Positions 42,101 to 63,785 of a DNA stretch of 64,000 nucleotides are shown one piece after another (the stretch's first letter is position 1; every line of letters begins with the position of its first letter). The stretch lies in the NCBI RefSeq assembly GCF_014873145.1, contig NZ_JADBEK010000001.1:2976001-3040000 (forward strand). The letters run 5' to 3'. The position numbers were made by a program, and so were the translations under genes. The notes under the pieces were generated by a model, which made no database searches, had not been told where the DNA came from, and worked only from the letters and a program-made list of their open reading frames with translations. Source of the stretch: Nonomuraea angiospora. GTDB taxonomy: Bacteria; Actinomycetota; Actinomycetes; Streptosporangiales; Streptosporangiaceae.

Positions 42101-45100
42101 GGCGTACAGGACGCTGTCGGGCTTGTTGTAGACCGGGTCGGACCGGTCGTAGGGGTAGATCTCCTCGATCGGCCGGTTGAGCTTGTCGTACTTGGTTTCG
42201 GCGACGAAGTCGACCAGGTCGCCGCCGCGTTCTACCCCGCGCGGGGTTATGGTCTTGGTCTTGTTGCCGACCTGGTCGTAGGCGAACTGGGTGGTGACGT
42301 ACTTGATGACGCCGTCGGTCTCGGAATGCGGGACCTTGGTTTCGACCACGTCGCCGCGCTCGTTGTAGGCGGTGATCGCCTTGTTGTCGTCCTGGTCGGT
42401 CTGGCCCACAACCCGGCCGTCCAGGTCGTACTCAGTGGATGTCTCGTATCCGGCGGCGTCCTTGACGGTGGTGACGCGGTGGTTGCGGTCGTAGGTGTAG
42501 AACGCCGTGTAGTCGCCGGTGTCGGCGGTGGCGTTCTTGCGTGGGTCGATGACCTTGGTGACGTTGCCGACGTCGTTGTACTCGTAGGTGATCTTGTTCT
42601 GTCGAGCGTTGGCGACGTCGGTGGCAGTGACGCCGATTAGCTGGTAGATGTCGTCGTACGTGTACGTGGTGGTGAACTGGGCCGGGTCCGCGCCGGGCAG
42701 GTTGCCCTTGGGTTCGGTCTGGTTCTTCAGATTGCCGGCCAGGTCCCACGTGAAGGTGGCCTTGCGTTCCGGTCCGTTGTCGCTGTCCTTGGGCAGGAAC
42801 GACTCTGTCAGCTGGTCGGCCTTGTCGTAGACGGCGGTGGACACGGCGCCGTTGGGAGCTATCGCCTTGGTGATGTTGTCGTTGGCGTCGTATTCCGGGG
42901 CCGGGGTGACGATGAACACCGGCGGGGAGGCGTCCTGGTCCTTGGGGACCTTGGACTCGAGCGGGCGTTTGAAGATGTCGTAGGTCTGGCTGGTGGTCTT
43001 GCCGAGTGCATCGGTGACCGACCGCACGTTGCCGCGCACGTCGTATTCGGTGACGGTGCTGTGCTCGTACGCGTCGGTGATCTTCTGGGGGTAGCCGGTC
43101 GGGTGGTAGTCGGTGAAGGTGGTGGTGTTGCCGTTGGCGTCGACTGACGTGGCCAGTTGGCCGACAGGGTCGTAGGTGTAGGTGGTGGTGTAATCGTCAG
43201 GATCGGCCGTTAAGACGCCGAGCGGATCGGTAACCGTCTTCAGGTTGCCGTTGCCGTAGTAGCCGAACTCCCACGTGTAGTGCTTCGCGCCGTCGCCAGC
43301 CCCCAGGGTGTTGCCGTTCGGGCTCGTCTTGAAGCGCAGGTCGGCGACGAAACCGTTGAAGTTGGCCGGACCCTCGTAGATCAGGATGGTGGAGGCGGTG
43401 CGGTTCTCGTTGGCCTCCGCGTCGGTGATCTTCAGCGGGTAGCCGGTCTTCGGGTCGTACTCCCACGTCGTAACGGCATATTCCGTCTTGCCGTCGTCCT
43501 TGCCCTTCTCGATCAGCGTGGTGACGTTGTGGTCGTCGTCCCACTCCAGATCAGTGATCTCGTTGTTGGCGTTGGTGATCAGATCCGGGCGGCCGTACTT
43601 GTCCAGCACGTACCTGGTGGCCTTGTTCGTGCCTTGCTGGAGCGGGTCGGTAACGGTGGCGTTGATGACTGCGCCCTGCGGGCCGTCTGGGTCGACGTAG
43701 TCGAACTTGGTGACTCCGTCGAGCCGGTCGGTGAGGGTTTCGACCTTCCACTTGTCCTCGGGGTCGACCTGCGGCTCGTAGTACTTCAGCTTCGTGTCGT
43801 GCCCGCGCGGGTCCTTGACGGCCACGAGCTTGACGTTCTTGTTGCCCTGGGTGGCGTCGTAGGTGAAGGCGAACGTCTTCGCTTGCTCGTCGCCGGCGCC
43901 GTCGACCATCTTGGCCATCAGGCCCTTGTCGGTGTAGGCGAAGGTCACCTTCCGGCCGGCGATGTCGGTGATCGACTCGACGTTGTCGATGATGTGCGGG
44001 TTGGTCAGCTTGGTGTCGTTGACAGGCTGGCCGGCGTCGTTGATGTAGGTGTAGTCCTGGCCCTTGGCGTAGTAGTCGAAGGTCAGGGTGCGACGCCCGG
44101 CCGCGTCGGTGATGTACTGCAGGAACTTGGTCGGCTTGTTGTTGGAGCGGCGACGTTCGTAGGTGAACGACATGGTGTTGCCGTTCTTGTCGACGATCGC
44201 CGACTGGAAGCCCTCGTCGTCGAAGAAGAACTGGGTGCGGTCCGGCTTGGTGAACACCCACTGCCGCAGCGGGTCGGCCGAGCCGGTCTTCTGCAGGTAC
44301 AGATGCACGCCGCGCGGGTGCTTGTACTCGCAGTTGGAGGTGCAGGTGGGCGGGTCGCGCAGCCACACGTGGGTGGTGCCGTCCCCGTCGGTCAGCCGCA
44401 CCTGCTCGGGCCAGACCTGACCGGGAGGGTGAAGGTGCAACTGTGAGCCGAGGCGCTGCAGCGTGGAGGTCTGCAGCGACCAGCCGTAGCCCATCGACGA
44501 TGCGCTGGTGTCCAGGCTGTTGTAGGTCATCCGGACGAACGTCTGCGCGCCGCGGGAGGGGTTGGTGAAGGCGTTGTAGTTCCACACCACGTTGCCCGCG
44601 TACGGGTTGACCAGGGCGGTCGCTCCGGCGCCGGTGTTCTTGCCGGTGTAGGCGTAGAACTTCTCCAGCCCCAGCAGGTCGCTGGTCGGGGACTCCAGGC
44701 GGATCTGCTGCGGCAGTTGCGGCAGCTGGTGGCTGGCGGACTTCCAGCTGTTGGTAGTGGTGTCGTGCACGTCCCACACCAGCGAGGCGGCGTCCGCCAG
44801 GTTGCCCGAGGCCAGCGTGGGGGCCTTGACCTGGGCCTGAACGGTGACCGTGTCACGTGGCTCCAGCGCTGCTTCCAGCGGGGTGAACAGCTGGGTGTCG
44901 CCGGTCACGTCCGTGCCGTCCGGCAGTTTCCAGAAGTAGCCCAGCCGGGTGGTGCCGGCCGGCCAGGTCTCGCTGGTGGTGTTGGTGATCGTGACGTCGA
45001 CCGTCCGCTGCTCGCCGCCGGCCATCCGGGACGGGGTGCTGGGGGCGCTGTAGGTCTGCGTCGGGTCGTAGTAGAGGACGTGCAGCCACGGCCGCACTTC

Positions 45101-51993: not shown

Positions 51994-52298
51994 CGGGTCT
52001 CCTTGGCGAAGAAAGCTGTCGCTCGCTTGAGGACGTCGACGTCCTCGCGCAGCCGCCGATTCTCCCGCCGCAACGCCTCCAGTTCCTGGCGTTCGCTGCT
52101 GGTCAGCCCGTCCCGCTGCCCGGCGTCGACCTCGGCCTGGCGGATCCACTGGCGCACCGCGGTCTCGGTCAGATCGAAGTCCTTGGCCACCTGACCGACC
52201 GAGCGGTCACCGCGCCGGCACAGCTCGACGATCTCGGCTTTGAACTCCGGCGTGAACGAGCGGCGAGGACGCGGCTTCTTCTTCCCCATGCTCTCCAT
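51990..52298 (-). CDS. IS3-family transposase OrfA
   Basis: The HTH_Tnp_1 protein of about 102 residues reads RRSFTPEFKAEIVELCRRGD, SVGQVAKDFDLTETAVRQWI, and then a leucine-zipper stretch with RREN and LREDVDVLKRATAFFAKET. OrfA binds the IS ends. Its stop overlaps the OrfB start (GTGA), the usual setting for a -1 programmed frameshift. Confidence 0.9.
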   Translation of the reverse strand: MESMGKKKPRPRRSFTPEFKAEIVELCRRGDRSVGQVAKDFDLTETAVRQWIRQAEVDAGQRDGLTSSERQELEALRRENRRLREDVDVLKRATAFFAKETR

Positions 52299-52342
52299 CA
52301 TGGACATCCTTCCGGGGACAAGCCACTGATCTCGGATGTCCG

Positions 52343-53593
52343 TCAAACCGGATCAAGCCCACTCCAGTCCACCACCAGTTGAGTGTGGCGCTTGAGAAAA
52401 ATTCGGCCTATGACGGGAGCTGACACCACCACGTCCGCCGGGTGGAGGGTGAACTGCGGGCCTGGGTGTTGCCGCCACTCGCGGTCCCATGTCGCCAGGT
52501 GAGCGGCAAGTCGCTCGGCGAGCTCGACGCCGTGGCGGCCATGGCTGTGGATACCGAACTCGAGGTGGCGCCCTTCGGTCTCATGGTCCCGGTGTGCCTC
52601 TCGATAAGTGAGGTAGGCGAAGCTGTCGGAAGTCACGAGGGCGGGGCAGAACCAACGCAGAACAGGTTTGATGAGGTCGCCTTCGCCGTCGTGGTCGGGG
52701 TTCGGCCAGATCACGCCGAAGGTGTCGTCGTGAGCCGCGAGCCACAGGTGCAACGTGTCGAAGGGGTCGTTGGAACGGACGACAATGCCGGTCCACAGTT
52801 CGCACGCGTCGCCGGTCAGCGCTTGGTCGAGTGCGTCTGTGTCCAGGGCCGGCCCGCCATCGAGCGTCAGCGTGACCGCTCCGCCGGCCAGAGCGGCGAC
52901 CTGCTCGTGGTGCGCTCCGGCGCCCTGCATCGGCACGAACCCGCACACCGTCGGATCCAGCCCGACGAGCCGGTCACCGTCCCGGACAAAGGTGATCGAC
53001 CGAGTGATCCCGCAGAACCGCAAGGGGACGATCATCCGGCCGCCTGGGGCGAGCAGGTGCCCCCACGGACAGTCCCAGGCACCGACCGTGACGAGGATGG
53101 CGTCATAGGGGCCGTCCTTATCGCCGATGTGCTCGGCATCTCCGAGGACGACCTTCACCTGTGGGTAGCCGGTTTCGGTGAGGAAGCGAGTCGCTCGCTC
53201 GGTGACGAACGGATCGATGTCCATGGTGACCACCAGCCCCTCCGGGCCGACGATCTCGGCGATGAGTGCCGCGTTGTAGCCGCCGCTGCCGATCTCCAGC
53301 ACTCGCGCCCCACGCGTGAGCTGGGCGGCTTCGAGCATCTCGGCTTGCAGCCAGGGAGCGCTGACGGAACTCGTTGCCTTGCCGCTGGCATCACGCTTGG
53401 TGACAACGGTGTCCATGGCGGAGTAAGCGGCGGCGATTGACGGCGCTTCGGGGGCGAACTTCTCGCGTGGGACCTTCGCGAACGCTGCCGCGACCTCAGG
53501 AGAGCGGATCGATCCCCGTTCCTTCAGCTGGGCAACCATGTCGGCTCGCGCAAGATCCGGAGACTCAGATGATGACAGAGTGTCGATGGTCAC
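52343..53593 (-). CDS. FxLD-system protein carboxyl methyltransferase (PCMT-like)
   Basis: The 416-residue protein has an N-terminal PCMT domain (about 15-215): FAKVPREKFAPEAPSIAAAYSA-type start, MLEAAQLTRGARVLEIGSGG motif I, VVTMDIDPF and YDAILVTVGAWDCPWGHLLA. A C-terminal half (about 220-416; DPFDTLHLWLAAHD, VTSDSFAYLTYREA) is typical of the methyltransferases of FxLD lanthipeptide clusters. There they are thought to methylate the modified precursor at Asp to give an aspartimide or isoaspartyl linkage. No FxLD precursor, split LanB or LanC gene is in this window, so it is an orphan here. The start is GTG at 53593. Confidence 0.85.
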   Translation of the reverse strand: MTIDTLSSSESPDLARADMVAQLKERGSIRSPEVAAAFAKVPREKFAPEAPSIAAAYSAMDTVVTKRDASGKATSSVSAPWLQAEMLEAAQLTRGARVLEIGSGGYNAALIAEIVGPEGLVVTMDIDPFVTERATRFLTETGYPQVKVVLGDAEHIGDKDGPYDAILVTVGAWDCPWGHLLAPGGRMIVPLRFCGITRSITFVRDGDRLVGLDPTVCGFVPMQGAGAHHEQVAALAGGAVTLTLDGGPALDTDALDQALTGDACELWTGIVVRSNDPFDTLHLWLAAHDDTFGVIWPNPDHDGEGDLIKPVLRWFCPALVTSDSFAYLTYREAHRDHETEGRHLEFGIHSHGRHGVELAERLAAHLATWDREWRQHPGPQFTLHPADVVVSAPVIGRIFLKRHTQLVVDWSGLDPV

Positions 53594-53692
53594 TCGCTCA
53601 ATGTTAGCCCCGGGCCCGGCGTGTGACCTCGGCTCGCCAGATGCTTCCCACTCAACGGATACATCTCACGGCAGTCGCGTACGTTGCTTGAC

Positions 53693-54742
53693 GTGACCGA
53701 CGACACCCAGAGGATCTACCCTGACATCACCGATGACCTTGCTGTCATTCAGGAGGCGTTCGGTCTGGGCATCCTCAACGCCGAGGATCTGACGTATCTC
53801 CCCGCCGGGATGATGAACCGCAACTGGCGTGTCCGCACCGGCCGCGGAACGTACGCGTTGAAGCAGATCCTGGACGTGCCGCTGGACATGGCACGACGCA
53901 ACCTGCGCGTTCAGGCCATGCTCGCCGTGGACGGAGTTCCCGCTTGCGTACCCGAGATGAGCATTGGCGGTGACATCGTCGTGGAAGCAGCCGGCCGCGG
54001 CTACTGTCTCCTCCCTTGGGCTAAAGGCTCCCACCTGCCGGGCCCGGAGCTGTCGCTGGAGCAGGCCGGCCGATTGGGCAAGCTGGCCGGGCACATCCAC
54101 CACCGGCTGAACAGCCTCCCGCCAGGATCTGGCCTGGCCCGGGTGACCGCCGCTCCGCGTTCCAAGGTCACCGGCCAGAGTGCCGCCATCGCCGAAGCGG
54201 ACCGCTACCTGCGGCTGATCTCCTCCCTTGAGGTACGGCTGCCGTTCGACGTGACCGTGGCCGAGCTGCTGGAGCAGCGGAAGATCCTGCTCCAGGAGTA
54301 CGGAGAGCGACGGCCCGCCAGTGACTCCCCTGCCGGGCCAGCCGGGTGGACCCACGGCGATCTGCAGTACCGCAACCTTCTGTGGCACGACGGGGAGATC
54401 GCAGCGGTGCTGGACTGGGACCGCATCCAGGTCCGGACGTTCGCTGAAGAAGTCACCCGTACGGCGATGGTCCAGTTCATGTCCGAGGAAGGCCTCTTGG
54501 ATCTGGAACGCGTCAGCGCGTTCGTCGCCGGCTACCGCCACCTGATACCGCTGCGCTCAGAGGAAGTGGCGGACGGTCTCGACCGGTTGTGGTGGAGACG
54601 TATGACGAGCTTCTGGCAGTTGGACTTCCACTACAACCGGGGCAACCGCGGCGCTGCCGAGCTGGTCGTCCCGACGGAGCGGTTGCTGGCGTGGTGTGCC
54701 GAGCACCGGGAAGAAGTGGCAGCCGCCTTCACGGCGATCTGA
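53693..54742 (+). CDS. Aminoglycoside phosphotransferase-family kinase
   Basis: The product is about 349 residues with an APH/choline-kinase fold. It has an N-lobe with GMMNRNWRVRTGRGTYALKQI (Lys for ATP), the catalytic loop WTHGDLQYRNLLWHDG (HGDxxxxN) and the metal-binding IAAVLDWDRIQ (Asp). It phosphorylates a small hydroxylated substrate; homoserine-kinase-like and antibiotic kinases share the fold. The start is uncertain: TTG at 53684 or GTG at 53693, with no ribosome site, so the mRNA may be leaderless. It is divergent from the FxLD-type methyltransferase. Confidence 0.85.
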   Translation: MTDDTQRIYPDITDDLAVIQEAFGLGILNAEDLTYLPAGMMNRNWRVRTGRGTYALKQILDVPLDMARRNLRVQAMLAVDGVPACVPEMSIGGDIVVEAAGRGYCLLPWAKGSHLPGPELSLEQAGRLGKLAGHIHHRLNSLPPGSGLARVTAAPRSKVTGQSAAIAEADRYLRLISSLEVRLPFDVTVAELLEQRKILLQEYGERRPASDSPAGPAGWTHGDLQYRNLLWHDGEIAAVLDWDRIQVRTFAEEVTRTAMVQFMSEEGLLDLERVSAFVAGYRHLIPLRSEEVADGLDRLWWRRMTSFWQLDFHYNRGNRGAAELVVPTERLLAWCAEHREEVAAAFTAI

Positions 54743-55054: not shown

Positions 55055-55372
55055 TCAACCCTGCTGGGTTTCTTCGCCAACCTTGATCAAGGTTCCATTG
55101 GCACCGCGCTCATATCGGCGGGCCTCGTTCTTCGCCATCTTGGCCTCAACAGCCGAATCGAGGTCGACGCCGGACATCTCCGCGATGCTGGTCAGGAAGA
55201 TCAGGACATCGGCGAGTTCCTCGCCAAGGGTCTCGGGGTGCTTGCGGGCCGCTTCGAAGGCTTCGGACAGTTCGCCGTGGGCAAGGGCGAACTCCAAGGG
55301 TATGTCGGAGGTGTTGAACCCCTTGGCCAGCTTGTTCTCCCAGGCCCTCTTCTGGACGTCTCGGAGGTGCAC
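55055..55372 (-). CDS. MazG-like nucleotide pyrophosphohydrolase
   Basis: The 105-residue all-alpha NTP-PPase reads VQKRAWENKLAKGFNTSDIP, LAHGELSEAFEAAR, then LGEELADVLIFLTSIAEMSG and EAKMAKNEARRYERGA. The E-x-x-E...E-x-x-D metal-binding pattern (ELSEAFEA / EELADVLIF) is intact. It should hydrolyse a (d)NTP to (d)NMP and pyrophosphate. The GTG at 55372 follows CAGGAGA. It lies 115 bases downstream of the kinase of the nucleotide-type operon and on the same strand, so it is a possible last member. Confidence 0.88.
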   Translation of the reverse strand: MHLRDVQKRAWENKLAKGFNTSDIPLEFALAHGELSEAFEAARKHPETLGEELADVLIFLTSIAEMSGVDLDSAVEAKMAKNEARRYERGANGTLIKVGEETQQG

Positions 55373-55486
55373 CCGATTCTCCTGTGGCCGTGGAGCCTCA
55401 TGGGCTCTGTGAGGATGACGGACAGGCTGTGAGCCTAGCGGCCATCGTTCCGTCGGTCAGGCGAACGGCTTCTCTCGTACGTCGCG

Positions 55487-55978
55487 TCAGGCGGCTTGTT
55501 CGTTGTCCACGATGAGGACTTCCGTATACCTCGCCAGGTCCGCAAAGACCGTGAAATATCGGGCCGTGAGCAGCCGCAGTTCGTCGAGGGTGGGTGCCGT
55601 CCCGTCGCGGGCGAGAAGACGGGCATGGATGTGTTCCGGCCTGGCGGTGAGATGGACGAGGACACCTCGGCGGACGGCCACCATGCCGAGTAACGCGGCG
55701 GTCTGCGACGAGGTGAGGCGGCAGCGGCCGTGCAGTAGCGGGCCGTAGACCAGTTCGCTGATGAAACTGCGATCCAGGACCAACCGGCCGGCCAGGGCCA
55801 AGATGGCCTGGTGGCGCTGGAAGAGATCCGCTCCCTCGGGGGTGCGATCGGCATGCACCCGCCGGTAGCCGTATGTGGTGGCGAGCGCCGTGGCGTAGGT
55901 CGTTTTGCCCACCCCGTCGCAGCCCTCCAAGATGATCACCTCGTAGCGGTCGGCCCACATTGCGAGATTGGCTGCCAT
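55487..55978 (-). CDS. Thymidylate/deoxynucleoside-kinase-like P-loop protein
   Basis: The 163-residue protein has the P-loop IILEGCDGVGKTTYATALAT (about residues 15-34), then LAGRLVLDRSFISELVYGPL (DRS motif with LID-like surroundings), and a terminal VLIVDNEQAA. The EGxDGxGKTT loop is the hallmark of dTMP kinases. The protein is shorter than true Tmk (about 210 residues) and lacks a clear lid, so the substrate may be a nucleoside or an unusual monophosphate. The start shares one base with the stop of the upstream gene (TGATG). Confidence 0.8.
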   Translation of the reverse strand: MAANLAMWADRYEVIILEGCDGVGKTTYATALATTYGYRRVHADRTPEGADLFQRHQAILALAGRLVLDRSFISELVYGPLLHGRCRLTSSQTAALLGMVAVRRGVLVHLTARPEHIHARLLARDGTAPTLDELRLLTARYFTVFADLARYTEVLIVDNEQAA

Positions 55979-56934
55979 CAGGTCTCCAGGCGTTTCGCGA
56001 GTTCGTCGAGATCGCTGAAGGTGCCGGTCAGGCCGTACTGGATCATGAGGTTGCGGTAGTTGGGCTCACGGCCGTGGGCGAAGGTCCACCAGCAATCGGG
56101 CTCAGGGGCGAAGACGGGACGGCCGGTGGCCGCGCAGGCGCCGATGACCAACGCCGCGCCGGGAGGTGTCTCGGGTCCGCGAACGTCCACCACGGCGAGG
56201 CTTGCCTGTGCCAGGGCGGTCCAATCGTCTGCGGCCGTCAGGGCCGGATCCGCCGCGGCGTTGGTGAACCTCCCAGCGTGGTAGGTGGCGAACCCATGGG
56301 CACGTAGAGCATCGGAAACCCGAGCCGTCCAGCCCCCATCTCCGTACAGAGGAGGCTCCAGATAGGCCAGCCGCCGGTCGTTGACGGTGGCAGGCGGCAG
56401 GGCGGGGCGTGCTGTTAGCTCGCTCGTCAGAGCGTGAACTGCCTCGATGGCTGCGCAGGTGACGGTGTGAAGGTTCTGGGTGAGGAAACGCTCGAACCGA
56501 GCATCCTCACCGCCCGGGGGACCGAGTTGGGGCACGGAGATGACTCGGCTCACCACGTGCTGGAAGAGCGGGTCAGGGAACGGTAAGCGTAGCGCGGTGT
56601 CCGCAGTGGGGCCGTATGACTGGAAATCGGTGGTGACCGCGAGGATGGGAACGCCCCGACCGGCGGCGTAGCCAATTTCCATGCAAACGCCGTCGTCGAG
56701 GCTCGGGCCGTGCAGGATAGCGACCATGGCGTTGATCCGGGCCAGGCGTTCGCTGTCCAGTTCGAACAGGCGCCGACCCTTGCAGGGGTGGTTGAGGTTT
56801 TCCTCGTCGGTGTCGCAGAAGGGAAGGAACACGGCGTCCGGCCCGAAGCGGCGGGCGAGGTGGTGGGCGATGTAGGCGCCCAAGGCGCGGTCATGGGCGG
56901 CGAACAGACGGTGGGCCACGTAGTAGAGCGCCAC
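55978..56934 (-). CDS. Tandem nucleoside 2-deoxyribosyltransferase-like protein
   Basis: The 318-residue protein has two related halves. The first (about 1-150) reads MALYYVAHRLFAAHDRALGA, NAMVAILHGPSLDDGVCMEI, GYAAGRGVPILAVTTDFQSY. The acidic catalytic site (Asp in LDDG, Glu in EIGYA) is present. The second (about 185-318; RRLAYLEPPLYGDG, LAVVDVRGPETPPGAALVIG) keeps the fold but has P-G-A in place of the catalytic acid. So the second half looks like a structural or inactive partner. Family enzymes swap or hydrolyse nucleobases on deoxyribose. The GTG start follows GGGAGG. Confidence 0.8.
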   Translation of the reverse strand: MALYYVAHRLFAAHDRALGAYIAHHLARRFGPDAVFLPFCDTDEENLNHPCKGRRLFELDSERLARINAMVAILHGPSLDDGVCMEIGYAAGRGVPILAVTTDFQSYGPTADTALRLPFPDPLFQHVVSRVISVPQLGPPGGEDARFERFLTQNLHTVTCAAIEAVHALTSELTARPALPPATVNDRRLAYLEPPLYGDGGWTARVSDALRAHGFATYHAGRFTNAAADPALTAADDWTALAQASLAVVDVRGPETPPGAALVIGACAATGRPVFAPEPDCWWTFAHGREPNYRNLMIQYGLTGTFSDLDELAKRLET

Positions 56935-56952
56935 GGTAGAGCCTCCCTGTGA

Positions 56953-57762
56953 TCATGGGGATTCGTATGGCAGGCCTGGGTCACGAGCTTGGTGGGTGGC
57001 AGCGGTCACGGCCGACGCGAGCGCTTCCTGTTCCGTCGAGCCTTGGAGGATGTCGGCCAGGTAGGCGCCGGCGAGGGTGTCCCCGGCGCCGGTCACCTCC
57101 GTCACTGGGCCGCCTTGCGGTAATTCGGTGTCGATCGCGCGACCGTGGCGCAGCAGTACGACTGCGCCCGACCCATCGGAGACGACTACGGTGGCCAGCT
57201 CGTTCACGGCGACCAGATCGTCCAGGATCCGGTACTCGGCGGCGTTGACGAACACCGCCACAGCGTGCGGCAAGGCGTTTGTGGCCGCATGGATCTGCTC
57301 TGCTGCGGAGGCAAGGTGGAAGTCCAGGCTGAACGGATGCCCCGCCATCACGAGCTGCTCCAGGACCGGTCTGACGTCCAAGGGGCGGCGGCAGCATATG
57401 TGCCAGTGATCGCAGGCTGATCCGTCCAGCACGTCCAGTACGTGAGCGGTGAGAGCTGTGGCGCAGCCGTATGCGGCGGTCAGTCCGACGACCTGGCCAT
57501 CCGTGCTGTAGGTGATGTCGAACCGGCAAGATGCGCCAGCCGCGGTGGTCACATGGGAGAGATCGAGCTTCTTGGGCCAGGGGCGAGCGTGCAGGCGGGT
57601 GAGATCTGCGCCGATGACCGCGACGGGGCGAGCGGGCGTTCCGGCTCGGGCGGCGGCAAGGGCGACGTGTAATGCGGCGCCGCCGATCAGGGCGTAGGTG
57701 CGGCCGTCGGGGTAGCGGGTGGTGTCGATCGAGATGTTGCCGATCACGCCGAGACAGGGCAC
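56953..57762 (-). CDS. PfkB-family (ribokinase-like) sugar/nucleoside kinase
   Basis: The 269-residue protein has the N-terminal GVIGNISIDTTRYPDGRTYA, LIGGAALHVALAAARAG substrate motif and the C-terminal VTEVTGAGDTLAGAYLADIL, the DTxxGAGD-type anion hole with catalytic Asp. It phosphorylates a sugar or nucleoside hydroxyl with ATP. Given the neighbours, a nucleoside or ribose derivative is most likely (inference). The start is GTG at 57762; the upstream gene ends only 4 bases earlier. Confidence 0.9.
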   Translation of the reverse strand: MPCLGVIGNISIDTTRYPDGRTYALIGGAALHVALAAARAGTPARPVAVIGADLTRLHARPWPKKLDLSHVTTAAGASCRFDITYSTDGQVVGLTAAYGCATALTAHVLDVLDGSACDHWHICCRRPLDVRPVLEQLVMAGHPFSLDFHLASAAEQIHAATNALPHAVAVFVNAAEYRILDDLVAVNELATVVVSDGSGAVVLLRHGRAIDTELPQGGPVTEVTGAGDTLAGAYLADILQGSTEQEALASAVTAATHQARDPGLPYESP

Positions 57763-57766
57763 CTGG

Positions 57767-58585
57767 CTACCTCCGCCGTCGGGGCGGATGGTCGCAGTCG
57801 AGGACGGTGGAGCAGGCGGGCCGGTTGGCGCACACTCTCGGGCTGGTCGGAGGGTTGAGGAACAGGCGTTTGAAGTAGATCAGGACCAGGTGCAGCCACC
57901 ACGTGGGCGTTGACTGGTCGGGAATGGTGACCCGGTACCCGCGGGTGGTGATGAGGTCCCGGTAGCGGGAGGCGTCGGCGGCGGCGCAAGCCTCCAGCAG
58001 GAGCCGCATCCGCTCGTGGGCGAACGTCCCACTGCCCACCTCTATCCCGAGGAGCGGAGCGAGCTTGCCGACCATGCCGGAGTCGACGGGGATGATGCCG
58101 CAGTGGTAGCCGCGGGCGTAGAGGGCGGCGCACTGGGCGACCTTGTAGGAGGCGCCGTTCACCTCGGCGGCGAATGCCTCGATGAACGCGTCGGCCGGCA
58201 TGGTGACCGGGCGCCGGCCGCAGGCCTCCGACATGGCGACGAAGGTCTCCAGAGAGCGGAGGTAGCGGACGCGGGCGTCTGCCAGGCCGATTGGGCGGAT
58301 GAGTTCGACGACCTCGGAGTCCTGGAAGTTGATGAGTTCGTCCCAGCCATAGGCGTCGGCCTTCTTCACCACCTCGGCGTAGACGTCGACCATGGCGTAG
58401 GAAACACGAGTGCTCCATCCGGCCACGAGCATCCGTATCCGCCAGTCGTCCACGTGCAGGGGCCACCACTGGTTGTTGTCGTGGTTGGCCTCGACCGCCG
58501 CCTTCACCTCCTCCTGCGCGCTGACGACCGTGACCAGGTCGTACAGGCGGGGGGCGAGTTCGGAGGTCTCATCGGTGGTGTTCAC
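57767..58585 (-). CDS. HhH-GPD (endonuclease III-like) glycosylase-family variant
   Basis: The 272-residue protein has an all-helical core. RMLVAGWSTRVSYAMVDVYA matches the first helices of the HhH-GPD fold and LIRPIGLADARVRYLRSLET a helix-hairpin. GASYKVAQCAALYARGYHCG (Lys at the catalytic position) with IIPVDSGMVGKLAPLLG (catalytic Asp in PVD) matches the glycosylase core. The C-terminus CANRPACSTVLDC looks like an incomplete iron-sulfur motif. It may recognise a modified base in DNA or act on a free nucleoside. The assignment is by pattern only. The GTG start overlaps the upstream racemase gene by 17 bases. Confidence 0.65.
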   Translation of the reverse strand: MNTTDETSELAPRLYDLVTVVSAQEEVKAAVEANHDNNQWWPLHVDDWRIRMLVAGWSTRVSYAMVDVYAEVVKKADAYGWDELINFQDSEVVELIRPIGLADARVRYLRSLETFVAMSEACGRRPVTMPADAFIEAFAAEVNGASYKVAQCAALYARGYHCGIIPVDSGMVGKLAPLLGIEVGSGTFAHERMRLLLEACAAADASRYRDLITTRGYRVTIPDQSTPTWWLHLVLIYFKRLFLNPPTSPRVCANRPACSTVLDCDHPPRRRR

Positions 58586-59288
58586 GGGTACTCCCGAGGG
58601 CGTGCTGGGCTATGGCGGCGTTCGAGGAGGTTACGAGCCGTCCCAGCCGGCGCCGCAGCATCCTGATCGCGGCCTGGGTGGGCCAGCCTGTACAGGACAG
58701 TACGATCGCGTCCGCTTGTCGTAGTGCCTCCTTTCCCAACTGATCCACGAGCGCAGCCTGTTGGTTGAGGGTGACCTCGGCGTATCCATCGGCCAGGCCG
58801 AGGCTCGCCGAGCCCGTGACAAGGACGCCCCGCTCGGCGAATTGGGTGACCTCGACCTCCGTGATCTCGCGTGGATAGGGCGTGATTAGCGCGATCTTCC
58901 GCGCCCCGTGCTTCTGGAGCTGGGCCAGAATCGCCTCGAACGCGCTGACCACACGCACCTGAGAACCAGCCGTGACGTCGGCGAGGCGGCCGAGCTGGGT
59001 GAAGGCCGCCGACGTGCACGCCAGGTAGGAAAGCTCGAGCGATAGCCGGGACAGCTGGTGGAGCGCCCCGGGGACGGCTTCGATCAGGCCGGACAGGAAA
59101 TCCTCATCCAGCGCCGTGCCACCGTGGGCGGGCACCAGACGGGCGTAGTGCCACACGGTCCGTCCGCGTCCCCACTGCGGCAGTTCTGCCTCTACGACCG
59201 TGTTGGCCCAGGGCACCAGCACTCCAACGTGCGGCACAGAGGGATGCAAGGACGCGCGGCGGCGGTCAGACGCTTGTTGGAGCGCCAT
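58569..59288 (-). CDS. Asp/Glu racemase / maleate isomerase-like protein
   Basis: The 239-residue protein belongs to the Asp/Glu/hydantoin racemase superfamily. It starts VPHVGVLVPWANTVVEAELP, has the first catalytic Cys in LSYLACTSAAFTQLG and the second in AIVLSCTGWPTQAAIR, with KIALITPYPREITEVEVTQF between. Layout and length best fit maleate cis-trans isomerases and arylmalonate-decarboxylase-like enzymes, so an isomerase acting on a dicarboxylate or ring-opened pyrimidine is possible. The start overlaps the radical SAM gene by 23 bases. Confidence 0.85.
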   Translation of the reverse strand: MALQQASDRRRASLHPSVPHVGVLVPWANTVVEAELPQWGRGRTVWHYARLVPAHGGTALDEDFLSGLIEAVPGALHQLSRLSLELSYLACTSAAFTQLGRLADVTAGSQVRVVSAFEAILAQLQKHGARKIALITPYPREITEVEVTQFAERGVLVTGSASLGLADGYAEVTLNQQAALVDQLGKEALRQADAIVLSCTGWPTQAAIRMLRRRLGRLVTSSNAAIAQHALGSTREHHR

Positions 59289-60810
59289 CGCGTTCTCCGT
59301 AGATGTAGCGGGGCGCGTGGGAGGTGACGGTCATGTCGGCGACCTCGTACAGCGGGCGGACGGCGTCACGTTCCACGACCTGGATGGGGTAGGAGCCGAG
59401 GCGCCGATGCCAGGTGCCCCGGGTGGTGACGAAGAAGGAGTGCAGGTCGGTGATTGTGCGGCCCTGGGGGTAGACGCGCTGCTTCATCGGCTGGTCGAAG
59501 ACGTGGTCGATATCGGCCTTCCAGCTCGTGAAGTGCTCGGCCGAAGGCGGCGGCTCCTGCTCCTGGATCTTGGCCAGTGGCGTGCTGGGGTAGGCACGGG
59601 CTTGCCGGACATTGATGCGGTGGCACAGCAGCCCGGCGTCCAGGATGCGCACCAGCCCAGTGAGGTTCTCGTAGTGGGTCCGGTGCGTCTCACCTGGCAG
59701 GCCGTAGATCAGATTGAGGCCAGGCAGCAGGATGCTCAGCCCGCCGGGGCCTACTTGGGCGCCCGCCTGGTTCACATGCTCGACGGCCCGCAGAAGGATG
59801 TCGGGCGTGCAGGTGAGGGTGTTGCGCTTGATGACCTCCAGGTCGAAGGACTCGATGCCCATCGGCGCGCAGTTGCCTTCGGTGCAGTATGCGGCGACCA
59901 GGCGGGCGATCTTCGCCCCTGCCGGAGCGGCGACGGCGAGCGGGTCGGCGTTGTCGATGTGCAGGGTCACCAGGTCAGGGGCGGCGGACTCCCGGATGCC
60001 GGCCAGCAGCTTCTCGATGGCTGCGGCGTCGCGGTTCATGTAGGAGAAGAAGCAGGTCTGTTGGCCGAGCCTGAAGTGTCGTATGCCGGCGGCGTGCAGG
60101 ATGGCCACCTCGGCCAGGACGTCCTCGACCGGCCGGAAGTCCACCACCGGGGCTTTGACCGGCTCGTTGCAGAAATCGCAGAAGCGGCGCCGGGTACAAC
60201 CCCGGTAGAGCTCGATCTCGGCGACCGGCGTCCAGCGCAACTGGTCGATCAGGCCGCGGTAGTCGACGCGGTCGACGGCGAGTCGCTCGTACGGTGCTGC
60301 CTGCCGGGTCCCGGAGGTGATGTCGGCCGAGGTGATCGTGTGCGTGTGAACGGCGTCGAACAATCCGCCGTAGGCGGCCGGGTCGGCCAGCGCGTAGGCG
60401 GCCAGCGGGCCGAGCAGTACGCGGCGGCCGCGCGTGCAGGCCAGGGCCCGCGCGATCTCCTCGACCGAACCGTTCTGCGCCTGCAGATGCACCGAAGGCA
60501 CGGCATCCCCGGCGATCACCACGGTGAGAGCAGCGTCGCCGAGCAGGCGCAGCGCATCCTCGCGATTGACCGTGGCCGAGTAGGTGAGCCGATCCGACAG
60601 CGGAGGCCGCTCATGCGGCTGGCCGCCGTTCAGGCACCAGCGGACGTCGTCGATCGTGAGGTAGGCGACCCGGGCTCGCGGTTGCGCCGTGCGCAGCGCG
60701 CCGTAGGCGGCTCGGGCGTAGGTGGACAGGTACGGCGGAACCCCCAGGCCGGAGGGCTCGACGGTGTAGCAGTCCAAGATCAGCAGGGTGGTACGCGATG
60801 TCGTGCTCAT
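59266..60810 (-). CDS. B12-type radical SAM enzyme
   Basis: The 514-residue protein has an N-terminal Rossmann-like region resembling a cobalamin-binding domain (about 1-190; LLILDCYTVEPSGLGVPPYL). The radical SAM barrel has the cluster motif ELYRGCTRRRFCDFCNEP (about residue 205, spacing CX5CX2C), LGQQTCFFSYMN, LHIDNADPLAV and IYGLPGETHRTHYENL. The relaxed spacing is typical of the archaeal/bacterial B12-binding radical SAM group. Substrate unknown. ATG at 60810 is the first gene of a six- to seven-gene minus-strand operon. A possible role is carbon insertion or rearrangement on a nucleobase (inference). Confidence 0.85.
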   Translation of the reverse strand: MSTTSRTTLLILDCYTVEPSGLGVPPYLSTYARAAYGALRTAQPRARVAYLTIDDVRWCLNGGQPHERPPLSDRLTYSATVNREDALRLLGDAALTVVIAGDAVPSVHLQAQNGSVEEIARALACTRGRRVLLGPLAAYALADPAAYGGLFDAVHTHTITSADITSGTRQAAPYERLAVDRVDYRGLIDQLRWTPVAEIELYRGCTRRRFCDFCNEPVKAPVVDFRPVEDVLAEVAILHAAGIRHFRLGQQTCFFSYMNRDAAAIEKLLAGIRESAAPDLVTLHIDNADPLAVAAPAGAKIARLVAAYCTEGNCAPMGIESFDLEVIKRNTLTCTPDILLRAVEHVNQAGAQVGPGGLSILLPGLNLIYGLPGETHRTHYENLTGLVRILDAGLLCHRINVRQARAYPSTPLAKIQEQEPPPSAEHFTSWKADIDHVFDQPMKQRVYPQGRTITDLHSFFVTTRGTWHRRLGSYPIQVVERDAVRPLYEVADMTVTSHAPRYIYGERDGAPTSV

Positions 60811-61662
60811 GTGCACTCCAATCGTCAGCGTGCCCGTGTGGGGGTGGGGCTCGACTGCTCTTGGTCCTCGCTCATTGGTAGGTCTTCCCGCTCTGGCGCG
60901 GTCGGCTCGCCGAAGTGCGGGGTGGATGAGAAGAATGGCCGGGTCATGGCGGCCAGAACGATGCTGTTCATCGGAGGACTTTCGACGACGCGCGACGGGT
61001 AAATCGCAGCGAGGGTGAAGAAGGCGGAGCAACGTCTGGTGACCGGCGTCCCTCCGCCTCCTCCAAGACCGGCCGCAGTACCGCGACGGGGTTCGTGGAG
61101 GACGCGGCCGGATGACCGGGGGGAAGGCGTTGTCTGCCCGATCGTGGGACTCGTGGCCTTGGGAGAGGGACGTGGTCTCGTCCCAAGGCCACGAGGTCAT
61201 CGCAGGACATGGCCCAGCTTGGCCGTGTCCTGGGCACTCGGTTCATCACCGTGCCGTTCCTAGGGCAGTGGCTGAACGGGGCAGGGCTAACTGGGCCGGC
61301 GTCGGCTGAAGGTCGGCTACGGCACCGAGGAAACGCGCCTCCTAGACGCCGCCCGCGACCGCGTGCGGAGGACGCCAGGTCGAGATCTCGACCAAGTCGA
61401 GGTTGCGGAAGCCCAGGAATTGCCGGTTCTCTCGGGCGGCGTGCTCGACACCCGATGCGACCTTTCTCGTTCGGTACGCCCGGATTGATCTCCGGGATGC
61501 AGAAAGAGAAGATCACGGGATACTCCAGACCACGGGAAAGTGACGTCGGACAGGCACATATCCATCACAGCCTGGTAAGGCCTCATGGCGGGAGGGGAGA
61601 CTGGAGGAAGCGTGAGGAAGCGTTTCCGCCCCCTACTTCCTCCCCGGCGGCGAGGTGCACGG
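60811..61662. other. Long divergent control region
   Basis: About 850 bases lie between the radical SAM operon and the XRE regulator. No gene is supported. It contains the 15-bp inverted repeat at 61150-61195 and, close to the XRE start, a direct repeat GGAAGCGT-GA-GGAAGCGT near 61603-61622. Both operons probably start here. Confidence 0.5.
61150..61195. promoter_or_regulatory. Perfect 15-bp inverted repeat with 16-base spacer
   Basis: CTCGTGGCCTTGGGA (61150-61164) and TCCCAAGGCCACGAG (61181-61195) are exact complements. It lies mid-way in the divergent control region and has no U-tract. It may be an operator for the XRE regulator, the stem of a regulatory RNA, or a terminator. Confidence 0.65.
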
Positions 61663-62850
61663 ATGGATGACCAGGCGATACCCGAATGGGCGATACGGCT
61701 TCGCCAGGCCCGGCTCGACCGGCTGCTCAGTCAGAAGGCCCTGGCCCGGCTGATGCGGGAGGCGGCTGGCGAGGACATGCCGCTGGCCAAGACCGCAAGC
61801 TTGTGCCGAAACATCCGCTACTGGGAGGCCGGCACCTACAAACCCAACGCCCTCGACCGCATGCTGCTCTGCAAGGCCCTCGGCACGAGCGAGGCGGAGC
61901 TGTTCTGCGGCCAGTCCCCGGAGACCGCGATGCCGCTCCCGGTGAGAGGCTCGGTGGCCAGGCCTGCCGGGGAGCAGTACAGCGACGTTCTGGACCATCT
62001 ACGGGAGCGTGACAACCTCCTCGGTCCCCGCCATACCATTCCTGCAGTTTGCGAGCAGATCGCCATCCTTGAGCAACTGCTCGTCCCCGCCCGCAGGGCC
62101 GATCGAGTCGAAGTGCTCCGCCTTGCGGCTCGCTATGCCGAGTCGGCCGCGTGGCTGTACGAGGACGCCGGCGAGGTGGAGCTGGGCGGGCGCTGGGCTG
62201 ATCGAGCGGCCACTTGGGCGTACGAGGTCGGCGACGACCACATGATCGCGTGGACCATGTTCCGGCGCAGCCAGCAGGCCATGAGCGGACGGCGGGCCGG
62301 TGACGTACTCGGCCTGGCCGCCTCCGCACTCCGACAGGCCGACCGCCTGCCCACGCCGATGCGCACGGCGATCGTCCAGCAGCAGGCACAAGGGCATGCC
62401 CTCGACGGGGAAGAGCGGATCTGCCAGCGGCTCCTGGATGAAGCCCACGCGCTGGCATCTGCCGTGAACGACGATGGCGACGCCCGAGGCGGCCACGGGT
62501 CGTTCTGCACCCCGGCCTATGTTGAGATGCAGCGCGCCCGCTGCTGGCTGGAGCTGAAGCAGCCCCAGCGTGCTGCCACCATGGACGAGAAGGCCATTCC
62601 TGGGCTGCCACCTGTGTACCGCAGGGATCGGGGTATGGCTCTGGCAGGGTTGGCCGCCGCCTACACCGGACTGGGGAACCCTGAGCAAGCCGCAGTCCAG
62701 GCCGTCGAAGCGCTGGACATCGCTCGCGCCGCAGGTTCCGTAAGGATCATCAACATGTTGACCTCTGTTGAGCAGACTTTGAGCATCCATCGTCGGCTCC
62801 CGTCCGTGGCCGCGTTCCGGCTCGCCCTCACAAACGCCAGGACCAACTGA
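61663..62850 (+). CDS. XRE-family regulator with TPR-like C-terminus
   Basis: The 395-residue protein has an N-terminal HTH (about 8-72; AIRLRQARLDRLLSQKALAR, IRYWEAGTYKPNALDRMLLC) and a long all-helical region with TPR-like repeats (about 140-390; AARYAESAAWLYEDAGEVEL, ALAGLAAAYTGLGNPEQAAV). This is a common actinobacterial regulator layout. It is coupled by TGATG to the RibD-like gene. It likely controls that gene and the divergent radical SAM operon through the shared region. Confidence 0.9.
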   Translation: MDDQAIPEWAIRLRQARLDRLLSQKALARLMREAAGEDMPLAKTASLCRNIRYWEAGTYKPNALDRMLLCKALGTSEAELFCGQSPETAMPLPVRGSVARPAGEQYSDVLDHLRERDNLLGPRHTIPAVCEQIAILEQLLVPARRADRVEVLRLAARYAESAAWLYEDAGEVELGGRWADRAATWAYEVGDDHMIAWTMFRRSQQAMSGRRAGDVLGLAASALRQADRLPTPMRTAIVQQQAQGHALDGEERICQRLLDEAHALASAVNDDGDARGGHGSFCTPAYVEMQRARCWLELKQPQRAATMDEKAIPGLPPVYRRDRGMALAGLAAAYTGLGNPEQAAVQAVEALDIARAAGSVRIINMLTSVEQTLSIHRRLPSVAAFRLALTNARTN

Positions 62851-63785
62851 TGGCCTCCAGCCTCGAACTACAGGCCATGCGGTGGGCCATCGCCCTGTCC
62901 GCTCACGGACTCGGGTCCACCAGCCCAAACCCGCCCGTCGGCTGCGTGATCCTCGACGCAGAGAGCCGTCCGATCGGCGAGGGTTACCACGCGCGAAAGG
63001 GCGAAGCGCACGCCGAGGGAAACGCCTTGCTGGCCGCCGGCCCCGCAGCGCAGGGCGGGACGGCTGTGGTGACCCTGGAGCCGTGCAACCACGTCGGCCG
63101 CGCGCCCGCTTGCCGCCAGCTCCTGGTCGACGCAGGGATCGCGCGTGTGGTCATCGCTCTGCTCGACCCCACTTCCCGAGGCGAAGGAGGCGTGAACGAA
63201 CTGCGGAAGGCGGGCGTGAGCGTGGAGACCGACGTGCTCGCCGAGGAGGCGATGCTCGTGCTTGGCCAGTGGCGAACCGCGCTCGCCCTGAGCCGTCCCG
63301 TCCTCACCTGGGTCTACACCGAGCTCTCCGAAGGACGGACCGGCGCCATCAAACGCGTCCCGTCGGCTCGTGAACTGCTCCTGACCGCTGATGCTGTCCT
63401 GGACGCCGATGGCAACTTGGGCGAGGCTACGCCGCACAGCCATGGAACAGGCACGATCCTTCTTCCGCCTGACCCATTTCAGCTTGAACGCCACGAGCTG
63501 CTGAAGGCGCTCCACATGGGTGGAGTCCGGCACCTCCTGCTCGACGGCGGCCTGGACCTGGCCGCGCCTTTCCTGGCGGACGGCCTTGTGGACCACGTCG
63601 TCGCCTACATCCCCGATCGAGGCCCATCTTCGCCTCCGGCTTCTCCCGGTGGGGAGCTGATGCTGCCGGAGGGTTTCCACCTCACGGGAGTGAACCGCAT
63701 CCCGCGCTATGTAAGGGTCAGCGCAACCAGTAGGGACGAAACGCGACCTCGCACGACAGGGAGCCGCACGAGGCGCCACGCCTGA
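62850..63785 (+). CDS. RibD-like fused deaminase/reductase
   Basis: The 311-residue protein has an N-terminal cytidine-deaminase-like domain (about 1-145): zinc ligands in KGEAHAEGNALL (HAE) and TLEPCNHVGRAPAC (PCxxxxxxxxC), plus the SPNPPVGCVI signature of RibD deaminases. The C-terminal part (about 150-290; VLTWVYTELSEGRTGAIKRV, VRHLLLDGGLDLAAPFLADG) is a shortened and diverged reductase domain lacking the usual MSLDGR and GTVLADDP motifs. So it is probably not the housekeeping riboflavin enzyme but a pyrimidine/aminopyrimidine deaminase recruited to this locus. ATG overlaps the XRE stop. Confidence 0.85.
   Translation: MASSLELQAMRWAIALSAHGLGSTSPNPPVGCVILDAESRPIGEGYHARKGEAHAEGNALLAAGPAAQGGTAVVTLEPCNHVGRAPACRQLLVDAGIARVVIALLDPTSRGEGGVNELRKAGVSVETDVLAEEAMLVLGQWRTALALSRPVLTWVYTELSEGRTGAIKRVPSARELLLTADAVLDADGNLGEATPHSHGTGTILLPPDPFQLERHELLKALHMGGVRHLLLDGGLDLAAPFLADGLVDHVVAYIPDRGPSSPPASPGGELMLPEGFHLTGVNRIPRYVRVSATSRDETRPRTTGSRTRRHA

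Follow-up and report, generated by a model that had tools for sequence, protein, structure and literature searches.

What joint task could seven closely packed genes on the minus strand of the Nonomuraea angiospora genome perform? The stretch studied here, referred to below as the window, comprises 64,000 nucleotides of this one-contig, 13.1-Mb genome, and the genes in question, termed the cassette, occupy its positions 55055-60810. They form a chain with tight overlaps and gaps, as the initial annotation of this DNA had reported: from 60810 down to 55055 the intervals between successive genes are -23, -17, 4, 18, -1 and, before the last, MazG-like gene, 114 bases, and every open reading frame (ORF) named in that annotation was found in the window. 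We tentatively propose, with somewhat less than even confidence, that this is a mobile cassette by which the cell produces a single unusual (deoxy)nucleotide and keeps it under control, with self-protection built in and probably with an antiviral role. Its genes, in the order of the chain, are as follows.

59266-60810, minus strand: radical SAM enzyme (rSAM) with an N-terminal Rossmann-like domain, a CX5CX2C cluster motif and a C-terminal TRAM-like β domain; core gene.
58569-59288, minus strand: Amdase/EutA-type protein of the Asp/Glu racemase superfamily, assigned through Pfam and NCBIfam and carrying both Cys motifs; core gene.
57767-58585, minus strand: HhH-GPD (endonuclease III-like) glycosylase-fold protein, hereafter HhH; core and signature gene.
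56953-57762, minus strand: PfkB/ribokinase-family sugar or nucleoside kinase (Pfam PF00294, 1.2e-7); core gene.
55978-56934, minus strand: NDT-family protein (Pfam PF05014, 1e-16, residues 5-111); Actinomycetota-type loci only.
55487-55978, minus strand: small P-loop (d)NMP/nucleoside kinase-like protein (weak Pfam matches; phrog_761 'thymidylate kinase', 8.7e-15); core gene.
55055-55372, minus strand: MazG-like NTP pyrophosphohydrolase (Pfam PF03819/PF12643; MazG, 2e-6); near-core gene.

The open frame of the rSAM extends to 61200, and the ATG at 60810 matches the start in most relatives.

Loci were collected by scanning genome contigs with an HhH alignment, a design in which cassettes lacking this gene would be missed, and their gene content was taken from profile searches of the locus ORFs. 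The 59 loci obtained (numbered with L; genomes and contigs are numbered with G and C) contain the rSAM in 52 cases, the racemase-like gene in 53, PfkB in 52, the small kinase in 51, MazG in 46, NDT in 33 and a gene resembling NT5C, of the 5'(3')-deoxyribonucleotidase family, in 16. A count of co-occurrence had been called for by the initial annotation: all five of rSAM, racemase-like protein, HhH, PfkB and kinase are present in 48 of the 59 loci, more than expected by chance, and MazG accompanies them in 45 of these 48. Six of the other 11 loci are cut by a contig end (L034, L040, L057, L066, L068 and L084), and five are orphans or remnants (L059, L061, L065, L079 and L085). Two gene orders recur. 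The first, rSAM-racemase-HhH-PfkB-NDT-kinase-MazG, is found in 25 loci and, with MazG on the opposite strand, in six more; the second, NT5C-rSAM-racemase-HhH-kinase-PfkB/kinase2-MazG, is found in 14. Judged by record titles, in which the labels of metagenome-assembled genomes (MAGs) may be wrong, the carriers are Streptomyces, Actinoplanes, Actinomadura, Nonomuraea and relatives, uncultured Bacilli and Clostridia, Dojkabacteria, one member of the Bacteroidetes and one alphaproteobacterial MAG.

The genes have also diverged together. Pairwise distances of six genes were compared by mirror-tree in 43 of the 45 six-gene loci, leaving out L046 (fused) and L078 (broken rSAM); they correlate with r of 0.72-0.97, as expected for a jointly inherited set, a level reached in none of 500 shuffles, which ignore shared ancestry. 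For five of the six genes compared, the median identity between Actinomycetota and Bacilli-type MAGs is only 20-36%. The minus-strand chain is a single conserved unit, and its five-gene core, which has stayed together between groups this far apart, likely does one joint job.

What varies around the core is informative about its chemistry. NDT, which the initial annotation had included in the set, is confined to the 33 loci given above, all with Actinomycetota titles, and was not found outside this phylum. Most non-Actinomycetota loci carry instead the NT5C-like gene and a second kinase; the sole NT5C-like protein scanned, that of L058, falls below the Pfam cutoff (8e-4), and in Bacilli-type loci the second P-loop domain lies behind PfkB, where it was seen by its similarity to a separate kinase-like gene of L060. 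The alphaproteobacterial locus L072 has Ham1 (8e-23) and no MazG, a kinase-HAD fusion, and an rSAM represented by a short C-terminal part in fusion with PfkB. In the decayed Rickettsiales locus L079 Ham1 adjoins HhH, and the Bacteroidetes locus L060 displays an HhH-kinase fusion, with no MazG seen. The variable parts that can be named are all nucleotide enzymes (NT5C-like, Ham1, HAD and second P-loop kinase), which fits unusual (deoxy)nucleotide chemistry. The earlier suggestion of unusual nucleoside or nucleotide chemistry thus agrees with swaps confined to NT5C-like proteins, second P-loop kinases, Ham1, and kinase-HAD and HhH-kinase fusions. A five-gene core with a near-constant pyrophosphatase across phyla, exchanging parts only among nameable nucleotide enzymes, suggests that a single unusual nucleotide is at stake.

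The folds and motifs of the proteins are consistent with active enzymes of particular kinds. The rSAM matches Pfam Radical_SAM (1.7e-9), and its CX5CX2C motif is kept in 50 of 53 loci. It matches the Rossmann-like, radical SAM barrel and TRAM architecture of the MiaB/RimO methylthiotransferases, enzymes that carry three N-terminal cysteines and a CX3CX2C motif; this Cys pattern is absent from the rSAM, whose N-terminal part has one near-invariant Cys. Its fold neighbours are the methylthiotransferases, MgmA, AprD4 and OxsB, the likeness to OxsB being a fold match no closer than that to the methylthiotransferases. Structures of Mmp10 (entries beginning 7qb) appear only further down the list, and the cobalamin domain of Mmp10 is C-terminal according to the available part of PMC13331322; because of both points Mmp10 lends no B12 support to the N-terminal domain of the rSAM. 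The description 'B12-type radical SAM' is partly supported: it holds for the radical SAM assignment and, by fold, for the N-terminal Rossmann-like domain, while cobalamin binding is putative. The racemase-like protein matches Amdase (4e-11) and Asp_Glu_race (1e-7) in Pfam and, among 54 cassette loci, preserves the first Cys motif in 52 and the second in 53.

HhH, whose nearest relatives are Nonomuraea proteins, matches the HhH-GPD family of Pfam at 0.0016, below the cutoff by sequence, and its endonuclease III (EndoIII)-like fold supports the assignment. Asp168 is conserved in 28 of 28 aligned sequences and Lys148 in 27 of 28, with Asn replacing Lys in 3 of 58 loci; these would be the equivalents of the EndoIII catalytic residues. 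The DNA-binding hairpin of HhH-GPD proteins carries G-x-G, and EndoIII-type glycosylases have, though not in all members, a four-Cys [4Fe-4S] tail. G-x-G is present in 7 of 58 cassette loci and absent from the other 51, with G-A-S in 42, and the tail has two invariant cysteines (252 and 264) and a third in 17 of 28 sequences, which is not the four-Cys pattern. A protein with the catalytic Asp, mostly with the Lys, and lacking the G-x-G hairpin would fit a small substrate.

In the remaining proteins the PfkB motif [TS][GV]AGD is found in 51 of 53 loci, the catalytic-Glu motif of NDT in 32 of 34, the kinase motif DRxFxSExVYGP in 47 of 52, the kinase P-loop in 36 of 52 and the MazG motif in 29 of 47; some of the misses, for example in the kinase P-loop and MazG, stem from ORF choice or strict patterns. 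Of the 'tandem NDT', the N-terminal residues 5-111 match the NDT family; the rest of the protein is unmatched, and 'tandem' is a deduction from length. Likewise, the kinase is P-loop and dNK/TMPK-like as first proposed, but its Pfam matches lie below cutoff.

How might these activities be combined? MazG (or Ham1) would convert an NTP to the NMP substrate, remove the triphosphate of the product, or do both. The rSAM and the two-cysteine racemase-like enzyme may then modify the nucleotide, with the small P-loop kinase and the PfkB kinase setting its phosphorylation state. NDT in Actinomycetota, or the 5'-deoxynucleotidase-like protein and second kinase in most other loci, would act with HhH in cleaving or exchanging the base, so that unwanted product is removed. 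The purpose could be an antiviral nucleotide analogue, by a logic comparable to that of viperin (ddhCTP) or oxetanocin. We favour an intracellular nucleotide because there are precedents in OxsB and SAND/viperin, which are radical SAM enzymes acting on nucleotides, and in the pool hydrolase of phage S-2L. This proposal is built on the observed linkage, co-divergence, folds, catalytic motifs, sporadic occurrence with some flank integrases, and defence neighbours in one family, from which we infer the substrates, the order of steps, the product and the antiviral role. A more specific version, in which an rSAM-built toxic or chain-blocking nucleotide constitutes a new class of immunity common to Streptomyces, uncultured Bacilli and Dojkabacteria, activated by the cassette's own kinases and with the host protected by its own pyrophosphatase, nucleotidase and glycosylase, seems to us rather unlikely in full.

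The view that the product stays in the cell is favoured by two observations, the apparent lack of a conserved transporter and the small size of some carriers, which include MAGs of 0.7-1.3 Mb in the assemblies used (L064, L058 and L066). By crude hydropathy, only 3 of the 48 complete loci have a protein with at least six hydrophobic segments within 5 kb, and no transporter was seen in the best 25 of 105 Pfam families matched by 121 flank genes. These flank genes, called heuristically, derive from a set of 173 in 33 of the 35 Actinomycetota-type loci (all but L034 and L040), of which 120 were scanned together with JetA of L045; left out were the repeats in L041-L044, L048-L051 and L078 (45 genes), one small gene and seven large ones, of which three, one each from L036, L052 and L053, were scanned separately.

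The occurrence of the cassette is sporadic, and it probably spreads horizontally. The rSAM has matches at E≤0.001 in 25 of 98 relatives, and these are full-length in only four, the genome itself included; one of the others, in G015, is broken and the remaining 20 genomes reach at most 30 bits. The G015 sequence (contig C26, ~717630-718006; L005, L026) is 75% identical over ~104 residues and is perhaps part of a cassette that is decaying within the genus. HhH was found in its own genome only among 394 drawn from the class, in the starting genome only among 43 from one other order, and, bar 11 matches of ~24 bits or less, in the starting genome only among 198 from another; it is present on 4 of 72,556 plasmids, all from Streptomyces. 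Among the matches listed, 5 of the 121 flank genes are phage integrases and 3 of 121 are DDE transposases. A search of viral_contigs yielded 22 pattern matches but no relative of HhH, and 50,697 phage records did not contain the gene either; a phage origin was rejected on these grounds. Phage thymidylate-kinase relatives of the small kinase were likewise set aside as carriers: in the one context viewed, the gene adjoins a dUTPase, with no cassette.

Defence genes were sought with PADLOC-DB 2.0.0 (2023). The seven cassette proteins, scanned with the products of the two divergent genes described below, matched no system, the kinase giving short weak P-loop matches only, and the rSAM matched no family, pVip included, at E≤0.01. 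In the flanks several systems were evident: Wadjet genes lie beside L045, L052, L055 and L056, DISARM DrmD beside L053, and Septu PtuA ~4 kb from L037. Matches to LmuC and a type IIG enzyme occur in the flank set, locus not assigned, and two flank genes that match pVip at 2.3e-10 were taken for generic radical SAM proteins. Strong Wadjet or DISARM matches flank at least five of six Micromonosporaceae loci (of which L054 does not allow a gene-by-gene assignment) compared with none of 19 control regions holding a match beyond 5.3e-62 (Fisher 1.1e-4, for a family picked after seeing the matches). The controls were arbitrary regions with 110 genes from the same six genomes, the family of which was checked for two; 59 PADLOC families matched them at 1e-8, with no Wadjet, DISARM or Septu in the best 25 of the 59, and the matches beyond these are, by sort order, no stronger than ~2e-17. 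An antiviral analogue is the likeliest purpose because the cassette is mobile cargo and can adjoin Wadjet or DISARM genes; from neighbours and mobility an anti-phage role is plausible.

Several points weigh against this interpretation. Strong defence neighbours could be assigned to 6 of the 33 flank-bearing Actinomycetota-type loci that make up the sample, five of them from the one family chosen post hoc. The control regions also match PADLOC, more weakly (best 5.3e-62, to transporter- and helicase-type models), and no defence gene was found beside the window's own cassette, where PADLOC covered the XRE and RibD flanks only. MazG is on the opposite strand in six loci, and there is no direct sign of B12 use by the rSAM. 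On plasmid L086 the cassette has two annotated major facilitator superfamily (MFS) transporter genes on its upstream side, and in L046 an MFS-like frame (by eye) is just upstream of it. Finally, the TRAM-like domain of the rSAM and the EndoIII fold of HhH may point to polymer substrates.

The last point introduces the best surviving of four rivals, which rank, after the intracellular nucleotide, as polymer modification, salvage, a secreted antibiotic and Brig1-like restriction. In the first, the rSAM would act on TRAM-bound DNA or RNA and HhH would excise or exchange a base in the polymer, with the rest supplying or clearing the nucleotide; the product would be a new modification. The VIA matches of the rSAM to RimO and MiaB extend as far as residues 510-511 of the model, TRAM-like end included, some sources name the enzyme 'with C-terminal helix-hairpin-helix motif', and HhH combines an EndoIII-like fold with the catalytic Asp and Lys. 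However, the scarcity of the G-x-G hairpin (7 of 58) and the lack of a four-Cys iron-sulfur tail, the absence of a restriction nuclease from the core, the predominance there of families that act on monomers, and the failure to find HhH in viral contigs or phage records make nucleic-acid modification unlikely overall. Salvage or detoxification, by which MazG/Ham1, the nucleotidase, the glycosylase, the rSAM and the racemase-like enzyme would dismantle a scavenged or damaged modified nucleotide and recover its parts, accommodates the pool-cleaning character of Ham1/MazG, NT5C-like and NDT proteins, and the fold matches of HhH include DUF2419, the human enzyme for queuine salvage (7ugk, rank 20), which is no closer than EndoIII. 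Salvage is nevertheless distinctly improbable given that each cassette has two or three kinase domains, that its pattern is mobile, sporadic and partly defence-adjacent, and that no conserved transporter was seen.

Biosynthesis of a secreted nucleoside antibiotic is a little less probable again: the many actinobacterial carriers, the precedent of OxsB/AlsB and the MFS genes of L086 and L046 would suit it, but the cassette is also carried by Dojkabacteria and Bacilli MAGs, among them the 0.7-1.3-Mb genomes, and no conserved exporter was seen within 5 kb by the crude hydropathy check. Restriction by base excision, with HhH modelled on Brig1, an anti-phage glycosylase precedent in defence islands, as the attacker of hypermodified phage DNA and the other genes as support, would make sense of HhH as the signature gene of every locus, which it is by search design, yet is very improbable, as the available part of PMC11078745 describes Brig1 as uracil-DNA-glycosylase-like and assigns its activity against T4 to a single gene in an operon of three, and the co-inheritance of rSAM, racemase-like protein, PfkB and kinase would be left unexplained.

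Two divergent genes face the cassette.

61585-62850, plus strand: NsdA-family XRE/TPR regulator (NF053720, 1.8e-51); a recurring kind of neighbour, not core.
62850-63785, plus strand: RibD-like deaminase/reductase, which shares one base with the regulator gene; judged to be outside the cassette.

Their coupling, with a 1-base overlap at 62850, and their divergent orientation are as first annotated. By contrast, RibD had been proposed as a member, a 'deaminase for the base', and was rejected: in BLASTP searches of the 59 cassette loci RibD and the window's XRE were found in 0 of 59, and relatives can have the pair without having the cassette. Six further genomes from the genus contain it, of which G026, G047, G016, G032 and G007 have no strong rSAM match; in G017 the pair and the rSAM share a contig, ~16 kb apart. 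With RibD outside the cassette, the proposed deamination step falls. No promoter was found in a scan of 60700-61700, which contains one weak terminator-like site, and an Rfam scan of the window gave no match. Seven of nine hand-picked regulator-like neighbours, the window's included, belong to the NsdA family (that of L031 barely above cutoff), and the other two are Sco1979-like. An SDR oxidoreductase gene is common to 12 loci (L037, L039, L041-L044, L046, L048-L051 and L078), eleven with Streptomyces titles; it lies near an NsdA-type regulator, on the downstream side of the cassette in L046 and on the upstream side in the other 11, the regulator family having been scanned in L037 and L046, and it may be an accessory part.

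Other features were noted around the loci. Upstream of the orphan HhH of L061 (3623-7279) are frames that by eye appear NUDIX-like, double kinase-like, glycosyltransferase-like and nucleotidyltransferase-like, a possible nucleotide-sugar cluster. In the window, 52343-53593 encodes a PCMT-type methyltransferase, judged by eye and by similarity to flank genes; PCMT matches occur in 4 of the 121 scanned flank genes, among the matches listed. Adjoining it at 52180-52290 on the minus strand, a transposase frame begins that by eye appears IS3-like, and ~62 bases at 52300-52361 are repeated, at ~86-98% identity, at many sites in related genomes. The segment 54007-54764, which overlaps the 3' end of an APH-family gene (53684-54742), has a 94% identical copy elsewhere in the genome (C1:12523460-12524217). 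A 2811-residue open frame at 39122-47557 (minus strand), with many YD-type repeats, is RHS-like by eye.

The cassette is without a match among PADLOC models or the papers found; searches of open-licence literature returned no paper with this gene set. Several known systems nevertheless resemble it in part. Brig1 resembles HhH as a glycosylase gene of defence islands, but is described in the available part of PMC11078745 as uracil-DNA-glycosylase-like, with protection mapped to a single gene, whereas the cassette is multigene and its HhH EndoIII-like. A P-loop kinase and an HhH-related protein are shared with the thymine hypermodification of phages. There a 5-hydroxymethyldeoxyuridine (5-hmdU) kinase is paired with the HhH-related aGPT-Pplase. 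Membership of the HMUDK and aGPT-Pplase families was rejected: BFVD gave weak fold matches to helical domains of 5-hmdU kinases (E 1.4 and 2.6), and Pfam searches of three HhH proteins (E up to 5) and of the kinase (E up to 0.01) gave no match to either family. The cassette core, moreover, adds rSAM, racemase-like protein and PfkB to such a pair, and its HhH was not found in the 50,697 phage records.

The PurZ/DatZ system of S-2L has a MazG-like partner. DatZ is a deoxynucleoside triphosphate-pool hydrolase that steers an unusual nucleotide, in the replacement of adenine by 2-aminoadenine (PMC8065100, in the part available). These are phage genes, and that part of the source describes no radical SAM enzyme or glycosylase with them, from which the cassette differs in its rSAM and HhH. 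OxsB acts on 2'-dAMP, dADP and dATP with the HD phosphohydrolase OxsA, as the available part of PMC13331322 describes. OxsA/OxsB for oxetanocin and AlsA/AlsB for albucidin are two essential genes each, and OxsB has further domains; in what is available of the sources no HhH, racemase, PfkB, NDT or MazG is described for them, all of which the cassette has, and any cobalamin use by the rSAM is putative, its N-terminal domain being Rossmann-like by fold. SAND/viperin radical SAM enzymes make ddh nucleotides with an anti-phage effect, according to the part of PMC9642334 available. Compared with these prokaryotic viperins, the rSAM has no pVip match and carries additional domains at both termini; viperin chains in the PDB are ~260-290 residues long. 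If the product is an antiviral nucleotide, the cassette would represent a further radical SAM route beside the viperins and would open up new nucleoside chemistry.

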